From: Chloroflexota bacterium
GTDB lineage: Bacteria > Chloroflexota > Dehalococcoidia > JACPPY01
Length of the DNA: 10,138 nt
Assembly: GCA_016189825.1 (NCBI GenBank)
Contig: JACPRR010000280.1
Location: forward strand, 1 to 10,138
Direction: 5' to 3'
Under the pieces are notes generated by a model, which saw nothing but the letters and a program-made list of their open reading frames with translations, made no database searches and was not told the DNA's origin. Both the position numbers and the translations under genes were made by a program. Shown here piece after piece: positions 122 through 10,138 of this stretch; position 1 is the first letter of the stretch, and the number at the start of each line of letters is the position of its first letter.

Positions 122-1036
122 ATGGCAGAACGACCGTACGTAATACTGGAAAAGGACAGCGAAAAGCACAAAGCGGTGGTGACTCTTAACCGGCCGGAAG
201 AGAGCAACGCGCTGCATCGGGAGATGTGGAGCCAACTGGCCTCCGCGATGACCGACGTGCACAACGACGACGACCTGAAGGTAGTGGTAATAAAGGGAGC
301 CGGCGATTGCTTCAGCATCGGGGAGGACATGGAGCTACAGGGCAGGGAAGGCTACGGATGGGAAGATCCAACGCCGGGCAAGGAACGGCCACGCCGGCCC
401 AGCCAGCGACGCCGCCTGGTACATAACCGGTGGATGACCCATCACGTGTTGGGCAGCATAGCGTACTGCAACAAGCCCACCATAGCTCAGGTGCACGGGT
501 CGTGTTTCGGTGACGCCTTCAGTGTCGCCCTGCTCTGTGACCTCATCGTGTGCTCAGATGATGTCTTGCTGGGCCATCCCGGAGCCCGCGTCTTCGGGCC
601 CAACACGGTCTACGGCGCCATGGCCTACTACTTGCGATTGGGCATGGCGCTGGCCAAGGACCTGATGTTCACCGGGCGGCTTCTGGATGCAGAAGAGGCA
701 TTGCGTCGCTCAGTTGTCACCAATGTCGCCCCGCGTCGCGAGCTGGACGAGCTGGTCGGCAGGTATGTCCAGGGCATCCTTCAGATGCCTGCTGACGGTA
801 TTGCCACCGGCAAGGCCGTGGAGGCGATTTACCAGGATATCCATGGGTTGCTCGAGGGATTGAACGTGGCCTACGAAGGAATGACCCTCCTCAGCAACAT
901 GCGCTGGGAACCGGATGAGCACAACTTCTACAAGGAGCGGATGAAGCTTGGCGCGAAGGAGGCTATGAGACTGGCCAACGAGCGTTTCCGCGGGCTATAT
1001 GACAACGATGCCCTATTCAAGCCGGCCAGGGCGTGA
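122..1036 (+). CDS. crotonase-fold (enoyl-CoA hydratase/isomerase family) protein, both catalytic Glu missing
   Basis: This is a 304-residue crotonase-superfamily protein predicted to bind an acyl-CoA in the cytosol. The N-terminal VTLNRPEESNAL (19-31) and the first oxyanion-hole region DCFSIGEDM (62-70) are typical. The second block, G126 to D140 (HGSCFG...LLCD), aligns with the family's G-x-x-x-GGG-x-E-L-A block. The usual catalytic glutamates (rat ECH Glu144 and Glu164) fall on Ser134 and Gly154, and an oxyanion glycine falls on Asp131. A basic insertion (about 85-104, rich in Arg) separates the two blocks, and the protein is about 40 residues longer than standard hydratases. It is paralogous to the genes at 1096 and 9390, sharing the MPADGI motif and the MRW-P-E / DNDA-F C-terminus. 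The ATG is chosen for the GGAAGGGA Shine-Dalgarno at 107-114. Family membership is clear. The reaction is unknown, and it could be a non-catalytic partner subunit. Confidence 0.88.
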   Translation: MAERPYVILEKDSEKHKAVVTLNRPEESNALHREMWSQLASAMTDVHNDDDLKVVVIKGAGDCFSIGEDMELQGREGYGWEDPTPGKERPRRPSQRRRLVHNRWMTHHVLGSIAYCNKPTIAQVHGSCFGDAFSVALLCDLIVCSDDVLLGHPGARVFGPNTVYGAMAYYLRLGMALAKDLMFTGRLLDAEEALRRSVVTNVAPRRELDELVGRYVQGILQMPADGIATGKAVEAIYQDIHGLLEGLNVAYEGMTLLSNMRWEPDEHNFYKERMKLGAKEAMRLANERFRGLYDNDALFKPARA

Positions 1037-1095
1037 AAGGGACCCCGGATCGAGAAGCTCTACACCGGATGACACGGGCAGGCAAGCTAGGCGAA

Positions 1096-2073
1096 ATGGA
1101 CGAGTGCAAAGAGATAATCTATCACAAGGACCGTGCGCAGCGGGTCGCGCGTATCACGCTTAACCGGCCGGAGAAGCTGAACGCCATCACCCATGCGATG
1201 AAGAACGCGTTCTTGACGGCAATACATGATGCGGAATCGGACGACGCAATAAAAGTAGTTATCATCCAGGGCGCCGGCCGGGCCTTTTGCTCCGGCATAG
1301 ACCTTGGGGTGGCATTCACCGACCCGGAGACCTGGGGGGTGCAGGCGCCGCATCCAGGGGAAAAAGCAAGACGGCCCAGCCTGCGTCGTATGTTGACCTG
1401 GGACCGCTGGCAGTGTCTTGAGTTCATCTCGTCGATCGGGCGTTGCAACAAGGCGACTATAGCCCGTGTGCAGGGCTACGCCCTGGCCCTGGGGTTTGAC
1501 ATTGCGATGCAGTGCGATCTGGTGATTGCTTCTGAGGAAGCTGTCGTGGGCAACGCGCAAACCCGGGCGATGGGTGGGTTCTACGATGGCACGGTTTACG
1601 CCCGGTACCTTCGGCTGGGCAACGGGTTTACCAAGGAGCATTGCTTCGCTCCCAGATTGTATGATGCGCAAGAAGGAATGCGGCGTGGCTTCGTCAACAG
1701 GGTCGTACCCCTGGACCGTCTGGACGAAGAGGTTGACAAATGCGCCCGGGGAATCTGCGAGATGCCCGCGGACGGGATCACAATCGGCAAGAACATGCAG
1801 ATCGCCCTCCTGGATATCATGGGATATCGAAAGGGGCTGAACGCAGGGTACATGCATCACGTCGTTCACGGGAACATGCGGTGGGATCCTGGCGAGTACA
1901 TATACTTTAGAGAGCGCAGTAAGAAGGGTGCCCGGACGTTTTTTGTGGCGAGGGACGAGCGGACGCGTGGCGCTTGGGATAACGATGCCCGGTTCACCAA
2001 GGTAAAGACGCGCGAGCAAAGGGCTGGTGAGCCAGAAAAAGCTAATGGGAACTCAAGTCGCCAGGGCACTTGA
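1096..2073 (+). CDS. crotonase-fold (enoyl-CoA hydratase/isomerase family) protein, Asp in place of Glu
   Basis: This 325-residue crotonase paralogue is probably a cytosolic acyl-CoA-transforming enzyme. ITLNRPEKLNAI (20-31) and the canonical oxyanion motif AFCSGIDL (63-70) are present. In the second block (GYALALGFDIAMQCD, 127-141) Asp135 replaces the first catalytic Glu and Gln155 replaces the second. A basic loop around residues 85-105 (RRPSLRRMLTWDRW) matches the third paralogue almost exactly. The ATG at 1096 is preferred because MDECKEIIYHKD aligns with MDFENVIYEKD at the start of the gene at 9390. In-frame starts further upstream (GTG 1033, ATG 1069) would add a tail not shared by the paralogue. 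The 3' end overlaps the CoA-transferase start, suggesting co-translation. Family call is strong. Hydratase activity is doubtful; an isomerase, hydrolase or lyase-like role using Asp135 is possible. Confidence 0.88.
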   Translation: MDECKEIIYHKDRAQRVARITLNRPEKLNAITHAMKNAFLTAIHDAESDDAIKVVIIQGAGRAFCSGIDLGVAFTDPETWGVQAPHPGEKARRPSLRRMLTWDRWQCLEFISSIGRCNKATIARVQGYALALGFDIAMQCDLVIASEEAVVGNAQTRAMGGFYDGTVYARYLRLGNGFTKEHCFAPRLYDAQEGMRRGFVNRVVPLDRLDEEVDKCARGICEMPADGITIGKNMQIALLDIMGYRKGLNAGYMHHVVHGNMRWDPGEYIYFRERSKKGARTFFVARDERTRGAWDNDARFTKVKTREQRAGEPEKANGNSSRQGT

Positions 2074-3280
2074 CAACATAAGGGTCATAGACGTTGGGGG
2101 GTTTCATGCCGGGCCGGGGGCGGCCTACATTCTCGGCGACCTCGGCGCGCAAGTAGTAAAGGTGGAAGAGCCCCTTCGGGGCGACCCCTACCGCGGGCTG
2201 ACCGTGCTCCAGGGCGATGCCAGCGTGGTCCTGCCGGGAGGTCGCGTGATACCCGTGGAAACAGCCAACCGCAACAAGCGGGGCATCACTCTCAACCTGA
2301 AGAAAGAGGCGGCGCGGGCGGTACTGTACCGGCTCATTGAGAAATCCGATGTCTTCGTCACCAACTACTCCTCGACTACGCTGAAGAAGCTGGGCCTTGA
2401 CTATGATGCTTTGTCCCAACGCAATCCTCGTCTCATATACGGCGCGAGTTCCGGCTACGGTCCGGAGGGCCCGGACAAGGACCGGCGGTCCTTCGACTCG
2501 CTGACACTCGCCCGTTCCGGGCTGATGTGGGCTGCCGGCGAGCGTGAATTCGATGAACCTGTAGGGCTTGTGGGAGCTACCATGGACCAGCTGGGAGCTA
2601 CCATGCTGGCGTTCGCCATTTGCGTGGCCCTTTTTCATCGCCAGCGGACCGGCGCCGGGCAGCGCGTTGATGTCTCTCAGCTAGGTTCGGCAATGCATTT
2701 CCAGGGGATAAACGTGGATATGGCCCTCTTGCGCGGCCGGGGTTTCCCGCGCCATAGCCGTACTCGGACCAAGAGCGTCTTCTTGAACACCTACCTGTGC
2801 GCCGACAAGAAGTGGCTGGCATTGGGGGAAGGGCAGCAGGACAAGTACTGGCCTCAATTGTGCGATGCCCTGGACATGAAGGAACTGGAAAAGGACCCGC
2901 GCTTCGCCACGTCCCGCGCCCGCAGGGAAAACTATGTGGAGCTGAACGCCCTTGTGAACAAGATATTTGCCTCCAGGGGTCGGGAAGAGTGGCTCCAGGT
3001 GTTCAAGGACAAAGCATGTGGATTTGCCTACGATCGTGTCAACACTATCGAAGAGGCGGTCAAGGACACGCAAGTTCTGGAGAACCAGTATGTGGTTGAT
3101 TTCGATCATCCGGCGCTCGGTCCGGTAAAGCTGATAGGCTTTCCCATGCGCTTCAGCAAGACGCCTTGCGCGATTCAGCGTGAGGCCCCCGAGGTGGGGC
3201 AGCACACCGAGGAAGTGCTTCTTGAATACGGGTATACCTGGGATGATATCGCCAGCCTCAGAGGGGCGGGCGCCTTGTGA
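2027..3280 (+). CDS. family III CoA-transferase (CaiB/BaiF type)
   Basis: About 417 residues, the normal length for this family, which transfers CoA between carboxylic acids in the cytosol through an enzyme-bound aspartyl-CoA intermediate. Visible family signatures are an N-terminal RVIDVGG and HAGPGAAYILGDLGAQVVKVEEP (about 19-49, with the nucleotide-like GP-A-A turn), then GDPYRGL, then NRNKRGITLNLKKE (about 83-96). The MDQLGATM block has Asp187 at the position of the catalytic aspartate of formyl-CoA transferase, followed by HRQRTGAGQRVDVS. The start is ambiguous. GTG 2027 has AAAGGG a few bases upstream; ATG 2045 would shorten the protein by six residues. Either start overlaps the preceding crotonase gene, so the two are probably co-translated. 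It likely activates or deactivates the acid handled by the neighbouring crotonases. Substrate unknown. Confidence 0.92.
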   Translation: MSQKKLMGTQVARALDNIRVIDVGGFHAGPGAAYILGDLGAQVVKVEEPLRGDPYRGLTVLQGDASVVLPGGRVIPVETANRNKRGITLNLKKEAARAVLYRLIEKSDVFVTNYSSTTLKKLGLDYDALSQRNPRLIYGASSGYGPEGPDKDRRSFDSLTLARSGLMWAAGEREFDEPVGLVGATMDQLGATMLAFAICVALFHRQRTGAGQRVDVSQLGSAMHFQGINVDMALLRGRGFPRHSRTRTKSVFLNTYLCADKKWLALGEGQQDKYWPQLCDALDMKELEKDPRFATSRARRENYVELNALVNKIFASRGREEWLQVFKDKACGFAYDRVNTIEEAVKDTQVLENQYVVDFDHPALGPVKLIGFPMRFSKTPCAIQREAPEVGQHTEEVLLEYGYTWDDIASLRGAGAL

Positions 3281-3323
3281 ATCTGGCGATGACTAGCTTC
3301 GGACGACACAAATCGACTCTTAC

Positions 3324-3329
3324 AGGAGG
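3324..3329 (+). promoter_or_regulatory. strong Shine-Dalgarno for the thioesterase gene
   Basis: AGGAGG lies nine bases before ATG 3339 and is the closest match to the anti-SD consensus in the window apart from the panB site. It suggests the thioesterase is translated independently and efficiently, unlike the overlapping genes before it. Confidence 0.75.
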
Positions 3330-3338
3330 AAAACGGTA

Positions 3339-3734
3339 ATGGGACAGGTCACACCCGGTCTTGTCGGCGAGTCCAGTCAGACGGTCACTTTCGAGTTGAC
3401 TGCGGCCGCCAATGATAGCGGGCTCGTTCCCGCGTATGCCACGCCGGCGATGGTCAACTTGATGGAGAACGCCAGCATTGCGGCAATGAAAAAGCAGATG
3501 GACCCGGGTCAAACCAGCGTCGGCATCGAGGTCAACGTGAAGCATCTCGCGGCCACACCGGTGGGAATGCATGCTCGCGCTCGCTCGGAAGTGGTCGCGG
3601 TCGACGGGCGGCGGATTTCCTTCAAGGTGGAAGCCTGGGACGACAAGGAAAAGATCGGCGAGGGCACACACTCGAGAGCCATCGTAGACGACTCGCGGTT
3701 CAGGGAAAGGCTCTCCCAAAAGGCGAAACCTTAG
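3339..3734 (+). CDS. hotdog-fold acyl-CoA thioesterase, fluoroacetyl-CoA thioesterase (FlK)-like
   Basis: A 131-residue single-domain hotdog thioesterase, predicted to hydrolyse a short acyl-CoA in the cytosol. It resembles FlK of Streptomyces cattleya along its length: ATPAMVNLMENASI (34-47), SVGIEVNVKHLAATPVG (60-76) and a C-terminal GEGTHSRAIVD. The three FlK catalytic residues Thr42, Glu50 and His76 correspond to Thr35, Glu43 and His69 here, each with the same offset of seven. FlK-family proteins are common and most do not act on fluoroacetyl-CoA, so the substrate is open. In this cluster a role in releasing a pathway product, or in clearing a dead-end CoA thioester, is plausible. The gene follows the CoA-transferase after 58 bp, and a hairpin follows immediately. 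Confidence 0.88.
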   Translation: MGQVTPGLVGESSQTVTFELTAAANDSGLVPAYATPAMVNLMENASIAAMKKQMDPGQTSVGIEVNVKHLAATPVGMHARARSEVVAVDGRRISFKVEAWDDKEKIGEGTHSRAIVDDSRFRERLSQKAKP

Positions 3735-3754
3735 GGGACCTTCAGGGTCCCTTG
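3733..3754 (+). terminator. possible attenuating hairpin after the thioesterase gene
   Basis: AGGGGACC (3733-3740), loop TTCAG and GGTCCCTT (3746-3753) form an 8-bp stem with one G-U pair, starting on the thioesterase stop codon. The following bases (TGTCGTTGGG) are only weakly T-rich. It could be a weak terminator or an mRNA processing/stability hairpin separating the first four genes from panB onward. Confidence 0.4.
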
Positions 3755-3806
3755 TCGTTGGGACTGGCAGGACTGGAAGGAAATGACCCGTCAATTTGGC
3801 GTGAAG

Positions 3807-3813
3807 AAGGAGG
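3807..3813 (+). promoter_or_regulatory. Shine-Dalgarno that fixes the panB start at GTG 3818
   Basis: AAGGAGG ends four bases before GTG 3818. Together with homology it places the start there rather than at in-frame codons up to 66 bp upstream: from this GTG the metal-binding aspartates fall at positions 45 and 84, the same numbers as in E. coli PanB. Confidence 0.75.
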
Positions 3814-3817
3814 AGCC

Positions 3818-4672
3818 GTGGCAAAGAAGAGCATTATCGATCTGTACGAGATGAAGCAGCGGGGAGAGAAGGTGACCTGGATCACTGCCTATGACTTCCC
3901 TACTGCCGGTCTGGTCGAGCAGGCGGGGATGGATATGATCCTCGTTGGCGACTCCGTGGGCATGGTGGTCTACGGCTACGCCGGCACAATGCCGGTAACC
4001 ATGGACCAGATGATCTACCATACGGAAGCGGTCCGCAGAGGCGCCCCCAACACCTACGTCGTGGGAGACATGCCCTTCTTGTCGTACCAGCAGTCTGTCC
4101 AGGATGCCATCCTGAACGCCGGCAGGTTCTACAAAGAGGCGGGTGTCGACGCCATCAAGCTGGAGGGTGGCAAACGTGTCGTCCCACAGATACGCGGGAT
4201 AGTTGACTCCGGAATGGTGGTGATCGGACACATAGGGCTGACGCCGCAAAGCTCGGCACAGCTTGGCGGCTTCAAGGCCCAGGGCAATACCGCTGACGCA
4301 GCGCTGGCCCTGCTGGAGGACGCCAGGGCCGTCCAGGAAGCTGGAGCGGCGGCTCTCCTGGTCGAGGCGGTGCCGCCGGAGACCGGCAGGCTGATCCGAG
4401 ATAGCCTTCGCATACCGGTGCTGGGCATCGGAGCGGGGCCGCATTGCGATGGGCAACTCATGATCGTAAGCGACCTGCTCGGGATTTTCGAGGCCTTCAC
4501 CCCCAAGTTCGTAAAAAAATATGCAACCCTGGCTGACACCATGCGAAAGGCCTTTCGCGACTATATCCAGGAGGTCCATGAGGGCAAGTTCCCCACTGAG
4601 GACTACTGCTACAGAATGAAGGCCGGCGAGGCGGAGAAGCTAGCACGGTCAGTGGCGTCACGAAAGGCATGA
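3818..4672 (+). CDS. panB: 3-methyl-2-oxobutanoate hydroxymethyltransferase (ketopantoate hydroxymethyltransferase)
   Basis: A 284-residue TIM-barrel enzyme of the PEP mutase/isocitrate lyase superfamily. The family adds a hydroxymethyl group from 5,10-methylene-tetrahydrofolate to 3-methyl-2-oxobutanoate, giving ketopantoate for CoA biosynthesis. The PanB blocks appear in order: ITAYDFPTA (22-30), VGDSVGMVVYG with Asp45, VGDMPF with Asp84, IKLEGG with Lys114 and Glu116, GHIGLTPQS with His138, GGFKAQG, LLVEAVP with Glu183, and GIGAGPHCDGQ. All metal and substrate residues known from E. coli PanB are kept, so activity is likely. The oddity is the setting: no panC, panD or panE is nearby and the neighbours are acyl-CoA enzymes. 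It could be the housekeeping enzyme in an unusual place, or a paralogue that hydroxymethylates another 2-oxo acid. It overlaps the next gene by 4 bp (ATGA). Confidence 0.93.
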   Translation: MAKKSIIDLYEMKQRGEKVTWITAYDFPTAGLVEQAGMDMILVGDSVGMVVYGYAGTMPVTMDQMIYHTEAVRRGAPNTYVVGDMPFLSYQQSVQDAILNAGRFYKEAGVDAIKLEGGKRVVPQIRGIVDSGMVVIGHIGLTPQSSAQLGGFKAQGNTADAALALLEDARAVQEAGAAALLVEAVPPETGRLIRDSLRIPVLGIGAGPHCDGQLMIVSDLLGIFEAFTPKFVKKYATLADTMRKAFRDYIQEVHEGKFPTEDYCYRMKAGEAEKLARSVASRKA

Positions 4673-5823
4673 ATGACAGGCTCCAGGGGAAACGACTAGA
4701 GGGCGCAAACAGGCTGAAGGTCCTCGCAGTTGGGGATCTGATCCTGGGAATGCCGGACCCTGAATCCTATTTCCGCTATTCCCAGCCCATCCTCAAGAGC
4801 GGAGATGTCGTCATCGGTCAGGGTGAGGTACCTTATACCAGAAGCACCTTCCGCACCCGGCCCACTGTGATATCTGCTCCTGATCCGGACAACATGCGTG
4901 GCCTGACCTTCGCAGGGTTTAACATCATAACACTTGCCGGGAACCTGATATGGAACTATGGCCTCCCGGGAATACAAGACACCGTCGAGTGGCTTCACGA
5001 CCACGGGATTTCGACAACGGGCGCCGGAATGAACATTGATGAGGCGCGGCGCCCCATCCTGGTCGAACGCCACGGAATCCGGGTCGGCGTCCTGGATTAT
5101 AACTGTGTTGGACCCAGGGAAGCATGGGCCAGCCCGGAAAAAGCGGGGTGTGCGTACATAAGCATCCTGACTCACTACGAACCGTCGTTCCCTACGCCGG
5201 GCGGGCCATCCACGGTGTTCACTCTTGCTGAACCCCGAAGCCTGGAGTCGGCACTTGATGACATACGCCACCTCAGGCCACTTTGCGACGTATTGATCGT
5301 GGCGTTGCACAAAGGAATCACCAACACGCCGGTTACGCTGGCCGACTACGATCGGCAGGTATCTCATGCCGCCGTTGACGCCGGCGCGGATCTGATACTG
5401 GGACACCACGCCCATATTCTGAAGGGGATCGAGGTATATAGAGGAAAGGTCATCTTCCATGGCCTGGGAAACTTTGTTACCGTCGTTCCCAGGATGCCGC
5501 GTCGGCCTGGAGAGCCACTCGATACGTGGGCGCTGGCCAGCAGGCAGCTCTATCACTTCGAACATGACCCTGAGTATCCTACCTTCCCTTTCCACCCTGA
5601 GGCAAGGAAGACTATCATAGCCAGGTGCATCGTGGAGGACGGGCGGATATCTCAGGTAGGATACGTTCCCTGCTTGATAAACACGTCCGGCCAGCCGGAG
5701 GTCCTGGGGCATGACGCCAGGGGGCAACAGGTTTTCGACTATGTGGACAGGATAACACGGGAAGCCGGCTTGAATGGCGAGTTTGAATGGGAAGACAACG
5801 AGGTAGCTATTCGCCTGAGCTGA
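4669..5823 (+). CDS. CapA-like metallophosphatase-superfamily protein
   Basis: 384 residues resembling the CapA (PGA_cap) domain of the calcineurin-like phosphoesterase superfamily. Visible blocks are VGDLILG (Asp23), GEVPYT (52-57), an AGN block with YGLPGIQDTVEWL (90-107), GISTTGAGMNIDEARRP (113-129), VALHKG (211-216), DAGADLILGHHAHILKGIEVY (237-257) and HGLGNFV (264-270). Several usual metal-site positions differ: N-x-E-x-P is G-E-V-P, A-N-N-H is AGNL, and H-W-G is HKG, while GHHAH is intact. No signal peptide or membrane segment is seen at the N-terminus, unlike envelope-anchored CapA proteins, so a cytosolic role is likely. The ATGA overlap with panB indicates translational coupling. Its role in the cluster is unknown; hydrolysis of a phosphoester or another metal-dependent reaction is possible. 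The poly-gamma-glutamate name should not be applied. Confidence 0.8.
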   Translation: MNDRLQGKRLEGANRLKVLAVGDLILGMPDPESYFRYSQPILKSGDVVIGQGEVPYTRSTFRTRPTVISAPDPDNMRGLTFAGFNIITLAGNLIWNYGLPGIQDTVEWLHDHGISTTGAGMNIDEARRPILVERHGIRVGVLDYNCVGPREAWASPEKAGCAYISILTHYEPSFPTPGGPSTVFTLAEPRSLESALDDIRHLRPLCDVLIVALHKGITNTPVTLADYDRQVSHAAVDAGADLILGHHAHILKGIEVYRGKVIFHGLGNFVTVVPRMPRRPGEPLDTWALASRQLYHFEHDPEYPTFPFHPEARKTIIARCIVEDGRISQVGYVPCLINTSGQPEVLGHDARGQQVFDYVDRITREAGLNGEFEWEDNEVAIRLS

Positions 5824-5880
5824 AGGGCAGCGCCTGTCTGAAAGGGCATGAGGATTCACCAGCCGAACGAGGAAGGGCAA

Positions 5881-7584
5881 ATGTATAGCGTGTTGTGGCC
5901 GCGGGGGATGCAGGTCATTGAGGAGACCAGCCCCGCCAGCCGTCTCGATAGCCTGGAAGGGAAGACAGTAGGAGAGCTGTGGGGGTGGATCTACCGGGGC
6001 GATGTGATCTTCCCGGCCATAGAGAGGGAGTTGGCCCGGCGGTTTGCCGGTATCCGGTTCGTAAGTTACGAGGAGTTCGGCTCCACGCACGGGGCCGAAG
6101 AGGCGAAGGTGCTGGCGGCCTTGCCGGAGAAACTCAAGGAAACCGGGTGCGAAGCCGTCATCTCCGGTGTGGGTTGCTGAGGGGCTTGCACGCCCGCAGT
6201 TGTGCGGGCAAGTATCGAGGTAGAGAAACTGGGGATTCCAACTGCTTCGATCATATGCAGCGGCTTTGTGCCGCAGGCGCACATCGTTGCTGGAACCCTT
6301 GGAATCCACCATTTGCCAGTGGCATCGTATCCCGGACACGTTTTGCTCCAATCGGATAATGAGCTTAGCAAGAACGTAGAGAGTGTTCTCGTCGATCAGA
6401 TTATCAGCGCGTTGACTGTGCAGCCAGCACAGAAGAAGCCGAATCGTGAAGCAATTGGACCGCGGGACATCGTTTGCCGGGGTACCTTCGAGGAAGTCAA
6501 CAGTTTCTTTTATGAGAGGAAATGGAGTGACGGACTGCCGATTGTACCCCCAACCGCCGCCAAGGTGGAGGAGTTCCTGCGCTACACAGACCGTGCCCCT
6601 CATGAAGTGGTCGGGGTGCTGTCACCGGACAAACGGGAGGCCACTGTGTGGAACATCGCCGTGAACGGCGTGATGGCTGGCTGCCGCCCCGAGTACATGC
6701 CGGTGTTGACGGCAATCGTGGAGGCCCTGGCCGACCCCTCGTTCCGCCATGAGTACATGGGGACGACTGCGGGCACCGAAGCGCTGATTATCATGAACGG
6801 GCCGGTAATCAAGGACCTGGGGTTCAACTTCGAGCAGGGGGCGCTCCGGGTAGGCTTTCAGGCCAATACCAGCATCGGACGCTTCTTGAGGCTATACCTG
6901 AGGAATGTGGCTGGATTCTTGCCACATAGCACGGATAAGGCGACCTTTGGCGGGACGTGGAGGGTGGTGCTGGCGGAGAACGAGGACGCCGTGGCTCGAA
7001 TCGGGTGGCAACCGTTAAGCGTTGACCGAGGGTTCGATGCGGGTGAGAACGTCGTGACTGTCACCTCCTGCACTTCCACGGCCATGCTGGTCTCGGTTGG
7101 ATCATCTAGAGCCGAGGAGATGCTCGAGAAGCTGGCCGCTGCTGTCGCAGATATCCAGGTATACTTGTTCAGGGTTTCCTTTTCGGGACTCAGCGCAATG
7201 CCGCAAGTTGTGTTGAGTCCTTGTGTGGCGGAGGCCATTGCCCAAAGCGGCTACTCGAGGGCAGATGTTAGACGGTACTTGTACCAGCATGCGAGGGTTC
7301 CCGCGAAGAGGCTCGAACAGTTGTGTCGGGACAAGGGCACGCTGTGCGAGGCGGTGCGGCAGGGCAAGTTCCCGCGACAGTACTGCGAATCCACGGACCC
7401 CGATCGCCTGGTCCCGATGGTTTGGTCCCCAGACGACTACATAGTTATCGTGAGCGGTGACCCGGCCAGGGACAATTGCCTGGTATGCGGGCAGAACTCG
7501 TATGTAGGTTACCCGGTTTCCAAGCGAATCGAGCTGCCCTCCAACTGGCAGGCGTTATTGAGGGACCGGGTAGCTGCGTGCTAA
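5881..7584 (+). CDS. UGSC-family selenoprotein (Sec encoded by in-frame TGA 6178-6180)
   Basis: One gene of 567 residues, read through TGA as selenocysteine (U100). Residues 1 to about 180 form a UGSC-type domain: RLDSLEGKTVGELW (21-34), DVIFPAIERELARRF (41-55), then SGVGC-U-GACTPAVV and LGIPTASIICSGF directly after the TGA. The local motif is C99-U100-G-A-C103, so a selenol sits beside two cysteines (U-x-x-C as in thioredoxin-like redox sites). From about 190 to the end is a second domain starting near FYERKWSDGLPIVPP (DGLPIVPP 217-224), with AVNGVMAGCRPEY and a C-terminal C533-L-V-C536; the last residue is also Cys. This second domain is known to me as a partner of UGSC proteins, here fused. 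ATG 5881 is chosen for GGAAGG four bases upstream and agreement with family starts; ATG 5848 is an in-frame alternative. Reaction unknown; a thiol/selenol redox or reductive role is inferred. Confidence 0.85.
6178..6180 (+). other. selenocysteine codon (TGA)
   Basis: The TGA lies in frame between upstream and downstream halves of the same domain. The codons around it read GGT TGC TGA GGG GCT TGC ACG, giving G-C-U-G-A-C-T, a variant of the U-G-S-C-T motif for which the family is named. In relatives the same position is Sec or Cys. Confidence 0.85.
6185..6212 (+). promoter_or_regulatory. bacterial SECIS element
   Basis: Directly 3' of the UGA, GCCCGCA (6192-6198) pairs with TGCGGGC (6203-6209) around the tetraloop GTTG (6199-6202). 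The outer CTT (6185-6187) pairs with AAG (6210-6212), leaving a 4-base bulge on the 5' side. The bulge can also slide, giving CTTGC/GCAAG outside and CCGCA/TGCGG inside, with the same 10 pairs. The apical loop starts 18 bases after the UGA and begins with G-U, as expected of bacterial SECIS hairpins that bind SelB. The hairpin lies inside the coding region, as in bacteria generally. Confidence 0.8.
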
Positions 7585-7603
7585 TACAAACGCCTTAGAA
7601 TTT

Positions 7604-7638
7604 GTGGCATAACGCACAGGCAGGGACGCCTGTGCCAC
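7604..7638 (+). repeat. inverted repeat / hairpin before the CoA-transferase gene
   Basis: GCACAGGC (7614-7621) and GCCTGTGC (7628-7635) are perfect 8-base inverted copies around the loop AGGGAC. Outer GTGG (7604-7607) and CCAC (7635-7638) can extend the dyad with a shift. It sits between the selenoprotein stop and the CoA-transferase start. No T-run follows, so it is not a typical terminator. Only one copy is in this window. The GTGGCA...GGGACGCCTGTGCCACCC look is that of a dispersed intergenic repeat, but that is inference. Confidence 0.6.
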
Positions 7639-7661
7639 CCATAGGGATGCGACATCACTAC

Positions 7662-9317
7662 ATGAACAAGATAAGGTCTCTCGAAGAGGTCGTTGAGCTG
7701 GTCAGGGACGGCGATACCATCACGTGGTCTGGCTGTATCGGCATATTGAATCCAGAAAGGGTGTTGGGCGCGCTCGAGGCGAAGTTTCTCACGGAAGGGC
7801 ATCCGCGCGACCTGACGCTGTTTGAGCCATGCTCCACGGTGGTCAGCGTAGGCATGGAGCACTTCGCCTACGAGGGTTTCATCAGGAGACTGATTACCGC
7901 GCACTTGGGAATCGATCTGGAGCCAGACCATTGCCGCATGGTGGTGGACAACAAGATCGAAGCCTTCGCGATACCTCTGGGGGTGGCAAATCAGCTCCTG
8001 GCAGAGATTGCCAGGAAGAGCCCTGGTCTGCTCACGAAGGTCGGCCTGCATTCTTATCTTGATCCACGTCTCCAGGGGGGAAAGTATAACGACGTCACGA
8101 AGGGAGACCTGATACGGGTAGTCGAGTTCGAGGGAGAAGAATGGCTCTTCCTCAAGTCTTTCCCTATAAACGTCGCCGTTATCCGGGGCACCACGGCTGA
8201 CGAGGACGGCAATTTGAGCCTCGAGGAAGAGCCGCTGACGCTCAGCGTCTTGTACCAGGCAATGGCCGCTAGCAATTGGGGAGGGAAGGTCATCGCCCAG
8301 GTGAAAAGAGTCGTTCCCAGGGGCAGCCTGGACCCTCGCATGGTCGTGGTGCCGGGAGTGATGGTCGATGCTGTCGTCGTGGTTGAAGACCAGTGGCAGC
8401 ACGAGCGCTTCCCCGGTGAGTACGACCCTGGCATCGACGGGCGAGCGCGGGTGGCCCCGCCTCCAGCCCCGTTGTATCCCCTCGACGCTGAAAAAGTGGT
8501 GGCCCGCAGAGCGGCTATGGAGCTGGCGGCAGGTCAGGTCGTGAATCTTGGAGCGGGGATACCGACGAGGAGGCTTGCCGTCTTCACCCTTGAGGAGGAC
8601 ATACAGGATCTGATCACGGTGTCTCGTGAACACGGCGCACTGGGCGGGATCAGCTACGGCAGGGATGTCCACGTGAATCCGACTTCGTGGCTTTGTTACC
8701 AGGACGTTTTCAACTGGTACACGGGAGGTGGGTTGGATATCAGTTTCTCAGGCTTCGGCCAGGTCAATCCAGACGGCGACGTCAACCTGACCAGGTTCTC
8801 CAAGCATGTGCTGCGGGGCCCCGGTGGGGCGGCCGACATCATTCATCACGCCAAGAAAGTGGTTTTCACCGGCGCCTTTACACAAGGGGGACTCCGGGTC
8901 AAGATAGACAGGGACAAGCGCTGCATGGTTATCGTGGAGGAGGGCCGAAACCTCAAGTTCGTCAATCGCCTGTACCACGTTACGATGAGCGGGAAATACC
9001 TGGGGAGTCAGCACAAGCCGGTCCTGTTCGTGACTGAACGGGCGGTGTTCCAGCTTACCCAGGGCGGCCTCGAGCTCATAGAGATCGCCCCGGGCATCGA
9101 TCTCCAGAAGGACGTCCTGGAGAAAATGGAGTTCAGGCCCTTGATCTCCGGCTCGCTGCGCGAGATGGATTCGAGGGTGTTCTCGGATGGCAAGATGGGA
9201 CTGAGGCGCGACATGCTTGGCTGCGAGGAGCCGGGGAGGAAACCGCCCGTGCCCCTGGTGCCCGTTGAGAAGCTGCCCGAGCGGAGCTACTGGACCTCAC
9301 GCACGATAAAGAGATGA
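7662..9317 (+). CDS. family I acyl-CoA:carboxylate CoA-transferase, fused alpha-beta (propionate CoA-transferase/YdiF-like)
   Basis: 551 residues from ATG 7662, a single chain containing both the alpha and beta halves of a family I CoA-transferase. The family moves CoA between an acyl-CoA and a carboxylate through a glutamyl-CoA thioester in the cytosol. The N-terminal MNKIRSLEEVVELVRDGDT resembles propionate CoA-transferases, and NVAVIRGTTADEDGNLSLEEE is the alpha-half motif. The beta half begins near EKVVARRAAMEL and contains VVNLGAGIPTR. The catalytic motif is SREHGALGG with Glu323, close to Glu324 reported for the Clostridium propionicum enzyme. SFSGFGQVNPDGDVNLTRFS and FTGAFTQGGLRVKI follow. 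ATG 7662 is chosen by homology; ATG 7647 and TTG 7602 are in frame, and no start has a good Shine-Dalgarno. It would activate the pathway's acid using a cheap CoA donor. Substrate unknown. Confidence 0.92.
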   Translation: MNKIRSLEEVVELVRDGDTITWSGCIGILNPERVLGALEAKFLTEGHPRDLTLFEPCSTVVSVGMEHFAYEGFIRRLITAHLGIDLEPDHCRMVVDNKIEAFAIPLGVANQLLAEIARKSPGLLTKVGLHSYLDPRLQGGKYNDVTKGDLIRVVEFEGEEWLFLKSFPINVAVIRGTTADEDGNLSLEEEPLTLSVLYQAMAASNWGGKVIAQVKRVVPRGSLDPRMVVVPGVMVDAVVVVEDQWQHERFPGEYDPGIDGRARVAPPPAPLYPLDAEKVVARRAAMELAAGQVVNLGAGIPTRRLAVFTLEEDIQDLITVSREHGALGGISYGRDVHVNPTSWLCYQDVFNWYTGGGLDISFSGFGQVNPDGDVNLTRFSKHVLRGPGGAADIIHHAKKVVFTGAFTQGGLRVKIDRDKRCMVIVEEGRNLKFVNRLYHVTMSGKYLGSQHKPVLFVTERAVFQLTQGGLELIEIAPGIDLQKDVLEKMEFRPLISGSLREMDSRVFSDGKMGLRRDMLGCEEPGRKPPVPLVPVEKLPERSYWTSRTIKR

Positions 9318-9389: not shown

Positions 9390-10138
9390 ATGGACTTCGA
9401 AAATGTGATCTACGAGAAGGACCGCGGGAGGCACCTTGCAACGATCACCCTCAACCGCCCGGAGAAGCTGAACGCCATTAACCAGGGGCTCAAGCTGGAT
9501 TTCATGAGGGCCATGGCGGACGTGGAGGAAGACGACGCGGTGAAGGTGGTTGTTATCAAAGGCGCCGGTCGCAGTTTCTCTTCCGGGGCGGACCTGTCAT
9601 CGGCGTTCACCGATCCGCAAACCAGTTGGGGCGTTAAGATAGAGAAGCCCAAGAAGACGGCCGGCCGGCCCAGTCTGAGGCGCATGTTGACGGCGGACCG
9701 CTGGCTGGAGTTGACGTTCCCCAGCGCTATAGCCTATAGCAGCAAGGCCACCCTTGCCCAACTGCACGGGCATGTTCTGGGGCTGGCCTTCGACCTGGCG
9801 ATGCAGTGCGACCTGATCATCGCCTCCGAGGACGCTGTCATCGGCAACCCGATGACCCGCGCGATGGGTCCCTATTACGATGGCAGCGCCTCCTCCTGGG
9901 ACTTGCAGTTCGGCATCGGTCTCGCCAAGGAGCACTGCTTCGCTCCTCGCCTGTACGACGGTCGGGAAGCCTACCGGCTCGGCATCGTCAATAGAGTGGT
10001 ATCCCCGCAGCGTCTCGATGAGGAAGTGGCCAGGTATGTTCAGGGCATCAGCAACATGCCAGCCGACGGGATCGCTATAGGCAAGGGCGTGCAGACCGCT
10101 TTTCTGGACATTATGGGGTACCGCAAAGGCTTCAATTC
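9390..10138 (+). CDS. crotonase-fold (enoyl-CoA hydratase/isomerase family) protein, 3' end outside window
   Basis: A partial gene, open to the window edge (249 codons seen). It is the closest relative of the gene at 1096: the two align without gaps across the first 160 residues except near residue 80. TITLNRPEKLNAI (18-30) and the oxyanion motif SFSSGADL (62-69) are present. GHVLGLAFDLAMQCD (127-141) places Asp135 where hydratases have their first catalytic Glu, and Met155 where they have the second. The basic loop RPSLRRMLTADRW (93-105) and KEHCFAPRLYD further on are shared with the 1096 paralogue. The ATG is weakly supported by GAGG at 9376-9379 and by alignment of MDFENVIYEKD with its paralogue. 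Missing residues are probably about 70, judging from the paralogue. Reaction unknown. Confidence 0.88.
   Translation, partial: MDFENVIYEKDRGRHLATITLNRPEKLNAINQGLKLDFMRAMADVEEDDAVKVVVIKGAGRSFSSGADLSSAFTDPQTSWGVKIEKPKKTAGRPSLRRMLTADRWLELTFPSAIAYSSKATLAQLHGHVLGLAFDLAMQCDLIIASEDAVIGNPMTRAMGPYYDGSASSWDLQFGIGLAKEHCFAPRLYDGREAYRLGIVNRVVSPQRLDEEVARYVQGISNMPADGIAIGKGVQTAFLDIMGYRKGFN

Follow-up and report, generated by a model that had tools for sequence, protein, structure and literature searches.

Selenoproteins in which a UGSC domain carrying selenocysteine (Sec, U) is fused to a conserved unknown domain ("Unknown_1") were described in 2008 in the Global Ocean Sampling study (PMC2398784, in the passages of it available), and the UGSC family is represented by the profiles PF24696 and NF041046, with no function for it found in the literature passages covered. 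Here, we analyzed a stretch of 10,138 nucleotides (the window; positions 1 to 10,138 of contig JACPRR010000280.1, assembly GCA_016189825.1) from a Chloroflexota bacterium of the class Dehalococcoidia, in which positions 5881 to 7584 almost certainly constitute one gene for a 567-residue selenoprotein of this kind, the UGA at 6178 to 6180 being read, to judge from the sequence, as Sec under the direction of a hairpin at 6192 to 6209. As far as can be told, the gene adds a member to the known UGSC selenoproteins, of a fusion type that has already been reported. The original prediction had assigned it to the UGSC family, and PF24696 indeed matches the whole domain (residues 4 to 179) with 110 bits against a gathering cut-off of 25, the Sec motif U-G-x-C being shared as well. 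The window protein differs from the described family in staying below the curated NF041046 cut-off of 125 bits (the whole protein scores 65 bits and the isolated domain 68.1) and in carrying a fused second domain of about 385 residues. Like the Global Ocean Sampling protein (as covered in those passages), it joins a Sec-containing UGSC domain to a second, conserved unknown domain, and we infer that its C-terminal domain is perhaps Unknown_1.

The reading frame agrees with a single gene. As the original prediction had stated, the open reading frame (ORF) at 5848 to 6180 (110 amino acids, ending in TGA) and that at 6202 to 7584 (460 amino acids, GTG start) lie in one frame, and the only in-frame stops within 5881 to 7584 are the TGA at 6178 to 6180 and the terminal TAA at 7582. 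Reading through the TGA as U from the ATG at 5881 gives the 567-residue product, in which U100 lies in the motif GVGC-U-GACT. The position, frame and length proposed earlier were right, and the read-through proposed with them is supported. The start position is shared with paralogues in the same genome (e.g., MYEVVWPRGK), and the predicted structure runs across the U100 site (predicted local distance difference test, pLDDT, 92). The proposed false start, GTG 6202, has as its first base the last loop base of the hairpin. Standard annotation does truncate the gene, as had been foreseen, the database protein from this contig being 423 amino acids long and thus even shorter than the 460-residue ORF. 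Coordinates are collected in Table 1.

Table 1. Features of the UGSC selenoprotein gene and its immediate neighbors in the window.
Feature	Position	Strand	Basis or remark
PGA_cap (CapA-like) protein, upstream neighbor	4669..5823	+	profile match
Shine-Dalgarno-like GAGGAAGGG	5869..5877	+	precedes ATG 5881; inferred from sequence
Selenoprotein gene, UGSC/C-domain fusion (567 residues, residue 100 being Sec)	5881..7584	+	
UGSC domain (PF24696)	5890..6417	+	profile match
TGA read as selenocysteine (U100)	6178..6180	+	translation, homologue column, own paralogues, relative loci
Bacterial SECIS hairpin GCCCGCA-GTTG-TGCGGGC	6192..6209	+	folding, selection tests, published bSECIS model
C-terminal domain, no Pfam or NCBIfam match	6427..7581	+	
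CoA-transferase (FadX-like, below FadX cut-off), downstream neighbor	7602..9317	+	profile match

The part beyond residue 182 is matched by no Pfam profile at E 1e-3 and, even with the threshold relaxed to E 10, by none of NCBIfam, and sequence searches against solved structures gave nothing usable, the best match being a designed origami protein. Across the 48 sequences of alignment A1, C268 (AGCRPEYMP) is the sole invariant Cys of the C-terminal domain. On two contigs of the same genome (C127 and C60), this domain and the UGSC domain occur as separate adjacent genes, which supports a functional link between them. On C60 (L046), the UGSC paralogue at 675 to 1331 has Trp in place of Sec, and its C-terminal domain is the separate downstream gene.

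With respect to homologues, we considered the best 120 of 5441 database matches, of which 28 are annotated at full length. At the U column these 28 carry Cys (14), Gly (11), Leu (2) and Ala (1). All 92 shorter ones begin downstream of U (80 at query residues 101 to 120 and 12 at 121 to 160), which is the mark of truncated gene calls; together with the 423-residue fragment in the database, they make this a clean example of annotation loss. For relatives at the DNA level, genome contigs were searched with the C-terminal domain; P0001 as query returned none, and alignment A2 as query found at least 567 confirmed stretches. The best 80 of these were used; they come from 72 accession prefixes, so that some genomes are counted more than once. 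The UGSC motif lies upstream of the C-terminal domain, in the same frame, in all 80, and 79 of them carry TGA at the U column, the exception being a Peptococcaceae bin with TGC. Record titles for these loci name Chloroflexota, several Proteobacteria classes, Nitrospinota, Acidobacteria, Verrucomicrobia, Streptomyces, Amycolatopsis and Paenibacillus. Since records of named strains (Paenibacillus thalictri, Streptomyces hyderabadensis, Amycolatopsis acidicola and Novosphingobium flavum) hold relatives, the family is open to testing. In the window's own genome, 16 of the 17 PF24696 domains contain one TGA, in every case at the motif column, while the seventeenth is the Trp-bearing domain on C60. 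Judged by these codon comparisons, the TGA at the U column is not due to chance, the exact codon being shared by 79 of the best 80 relative loci.

These counts bear on two alternatives. If a nonsense mutation had made the stretch a pseudogene, or if two distinct genes were present, translation would end at 6180 and the downstream ORF would restart or be dead; we consider this very improbable, since the codon is TGA in 79/80 best loci and 16/17 own UGSC domains, and homology as well as the predicted structure (pLDDT 92) cross it. The original prediction had named, as the finding that would speak against it, close homologues that stop at this codon and leave the downstream part to another gene, and in-frame homology on both sides in 79 of the best 80 loci contradicts this; the Cys or Sec it expected at residue 100 of UGSC proteins is seen as Cys in 14/28 homologues and as TGA in those same 79 loci. 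Alternatively, this genome might have reassigned TGA to Trp, Gly or Cys, as the presence of in-frame TGA in many of its genes could suggest. However, TGA is the stop of six of the eight window ORFs counted, which argues that the code is not reassigned, and the read-through TGA of the UGSC genes lies at the U column and recurs in relatives from genera such as Streptomyces and Paenibacillus. We regard reassignment as having next to no probability.

The published model of the bacterial selenocysteine insertion sequence (bSECIS) describes a loop of 3 to 9 nucleotides (nt) with a G in its first two positions, 16 to 37 nt from the UGA, and a stem of 4 to 16 bp with a minimum free energy of at most −7.5 (PMC13188914, in the portion of it available). 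The window hairpin fits all of these limits, with a 7-bp stem and the loop GTTG beginning after 18 nt from the UGA. The hairpin region (43 nt) folds at −16 kcal/mol, and only 11 of 1000 synonymous recodings are equally stable (z = −3.1). Summed over the 14 copies in the same genome, the observed stability was reached in none of 1000 synonymous recodings, and singly 7/14 copies lie at a fraction of ≤0.05, while control windows from the same genes (n = 70) have a mean z of −0.25, with seven below −1.5. We further examined third codon positions in the 75 of 79 TGA loci that share the G[SAG]CTPAV context, bearing in mind that these related sequences are not independent. At stem-forming sites, Pro ends in a pyrimidine in 75/75 loci (background, 36%), Arg is CGG in 75/75 (background, 28%) and Thr is ACG in 69/75 (background, 41%). 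There is no such bias at the stem-lengthening Ala position (4/75 versus 54%), and the Val site can be judged in two loci only; the common stem is therefore 6 bp. On these comparisons, the hairpin is selected at synonymous sites, which is also at odds with two genes or a pseudogene.

Against decoding as Sec stand several observations. In 7/14 own copies, the hairpin alone has no advantage over synonymous recodings. For the window hairpin, the comparison with plain dinucleotide shuffles is weak (z = −1.35; 22/200 as stable). The Gly in 11 of the 28 full-length homologues and the Trp in the C60 paralogue indicate that the residue is dispensable in some members. Furthermore, selB, selD and tRNA-Sec were not found above cut-off in the window's own assembly (G000; 62% complete, 282 contigs), which favors two genes or a pseudogene.

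Decoding of the UGA would follow the standard bacterial route of SelA, SelB, SelD and tRNA-Sec. Of selA, the own assembly has the N-terminal half, located where a contig ends (280 bits; cut-off, 267.9). Its selB candidate (C206, 189 bits) proved to be EF-Tu (514 bits), its selD candidate (C104, 66 bits) the thiamine-phosphate kinase ThiL (222 bits; cut-off, 184), and its nearest tRNA-Sec matches are Ser and Tyr tRNAs. In the one genome of the same family searched (G001, 81% complete), selB is present (382 bits, with the SelB winged helix SelB-wing_3) and is adjoined on its upstream side by selD (L128, 3378 to 4427; 382 bits; cut-off, 125). This selD has an in-frame TGA of its own near the N-terminus (AAG-U-AAKLGPGDL), at what we take to be the site of the catalytic Cys of SelD. 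The search for sel genes suggested earlier was thus answered in part: a genome devoid of Sec machinery does not hold, as half of selA is present and a relative has selB and a Sec-containing selD, while selB, selD and tRNA-Sec did not turn up in the window's own assembly.

Across the class (119 genomes), UGSC occurs in 40 genomes, in 39 of them above cut-off, with one TGA in all but two of the rows listed. A tRNA-Sec match scoring 61 bits or more is found in 35/40 UGSC genomes versus 40/79 genomes without UGSC, in class-wide RNA searches that scored a portion of the first-look candidates. The five UGSC genomes below this value are G000, G001, G006, G027 and G043, the last having a UGSC match of just E 6.8e-4. 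selB is above cut-off in G001, G006 and G027 and not in the control G013, which has no UGSC. A divergent tRNA-Sec in G000, G001, G006 and G027 was sought and discarded: the Rfam search, which scored 150 candidates in each genome (out of 180, 268, 353 and 734), gave none above cut-off, and at the loci read with it ARAGORN called ordinary tRNAs, none with anticodon TCA. The pattern TTCAA...GGTTCRANNC recovered the tRNA-Sec already known from the control G028 and nothing in these four genomes, whose assemblies are fragmented, so that no conclusion is drawn from its absence.

With respect to function, the protein may be an oxidoreductase whose mode of action resembles that of the Sec-bearing B subunit in the reductases for glycine, sarcosine, betaine and D-proline, a proposal we make tentatively. 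Sec100 would act as the nucleophile and form a transient selenenyl-sulfide with Cys103 (U-G-A-C), and an NAD(P)H-dependent thioredoxin-reductase-like (TrxR-like) flavoprotein would return Sec100 to its reduced state; that the substrate, which might be a carboxylate or an acyl compound, is bound or activated by the C-terminal domain is a weak and rather doubtful suggestion. Among the 28 UGSC domains that make up alignment A3, eight match the GrdB model TIGR01917 (best, 1.3e-6) and eight match GrdF (best, 6.2e-6) at E ≤ 0.01. The likeness to selenoprotein B (GrdB, GrdF, GrdH and PrdB) thus lies in weak NCBIfam matches over the Sec region, and these sequence matches suggest, weakly, a distant resemblance of UGSC domains to that region. 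In contrast, the C-terminal domain is a different one, and no Gly_reductase-type gene is present among the seven window neighbors scanned. TrxR-like genes with CxxC are found in 28 of the best 80 relative loci, all on the UGSC strand and 17 of them within 300 nt.

Several results weigh against a GrdB-like role. On the window domain, the GrdB-family models TIGR01917, TIGR01918, NF040794, NF040795 and TIGR04483 score 12.7 to 17.9 bits, far under their curated cut-offs, and a Pfam scan of the 28 A3 domains gave no selenoprotein-B model at E ≤ 1, one domain matching PF09338 Gly_reductase at 0.11. At 3.2 per 100 kb, TrxR-like genes are no commoner in the best 80 loci than in 93 background loci (3.1), the reason being that the background includes 30 tRNA-Sec loci, nine of which (within L086-L113) carry one; the other 63 background loci have none. 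The link may therefore be to selenium use generally. None was found on 16 own UGSC contigs or in 80 stretches of G027. A selenoprotein with a thioredoxin fold, acting as a thiol oxidoreductase, would also account for the UxxC motif and for the lack of a selenoprotein-B model in the Pfam scan, and was judged likely in the passages available of PMC2398784; we hold this alternative to be improbable. In the fold comparison, Rossmann-like matches lead and no thioredoxin is among the 50 matches listed.

An expansion of UGSC genes is seen in G027, a genome of the same class (96% complete, 7% contamination, 5.0 Mb) with at least 150 PF24696 matches (150 of 208 candidates scored); G028 has 46. All 102 UGSC rows listed for G027 (L188-L267 and L348-L369) were read, and 100 have TGA at the column and two have none. 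G-x-C follows the TGA in these 100 genes except in L241, whose motif is U-G-T-U, a second TGA occupying the partner Cys position. TGA also terminates 21 of the 101 G027 UGSC ORFs whose end was seen. The summed hairpin stability of 99 G027 genes was reached by none of 200 synonymous sets. Identity to the closest paralogue has a median of 65% and a maximum of 91%, with two entries at ≥90%, which makes strain mixing an unlikely cause of the number. In the portions available of the sources, the largest bacterial selenoproteome cited comprises 63 selenoprotein genes, after 57 earlier (PMC13188914), with 39 given in PMC5029168 and PMC9312934. If the G027 count of at least 100 UGSC genes with TGA is true, a single family in one bacterium outnumbers any whole bacterial selenoproteome cited there, which raises the question of what UGSC enzymes do. 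No report of the expansion was found in the literature searched, mostly outside subscription papers and in part of each text. It is quite possible, though somewhat less likely than not, that the window gene and these at least 100 UGA/SECIS genes belong to a massively radiated GrdB-like selenoenzyme family of substrate-diversified reductases fed by TrxR-like flavoproteins, and largely missed because gene callers truncate at UGA. We weighted down both this reading and the GrdB-like mechanism because of the background rate of TrxR-like genes and the missing Pfam selenoprotein-B model; the distant GrdB resemblance and the G027 expansion are the parts worth following.

The remaining window genes (122 to 4672 and 9390 to 10136, one strand) comprise three enoyl-CoA-hydratase-like genes, a class III CoA-transferase, an FlK-type thioesterase and a ketopantoate hydroxymethyltransferase, an acyl-CoA cluster in which the third hydratase (9390 to 10136) was judged by sequence. 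In the own genome, the contigs that carry UGSC copies C116, C211, C270, C252 and C60 also have SBP_bac_5 transporter genes (20 ORFs scanned), and other neighbors include 3HCDH, TPP-enzyme, AFOR, amidohydrolase, MFS, DegT and more. The neighborhood was dropped as a guide to the substrate, the 20 scanned ORFs showing no single pathway. Just past the gene, at window positions 7617 to 7632, lies the palindrome CAGGCAGGGACGCCTG, which recurs close to UGSC genes of the own genome, on contig C273 (L008) and twice on C20 (L055), as well as in L177, and is possibly a repeat resembling repetitive extragenic palindromes (REP-like).
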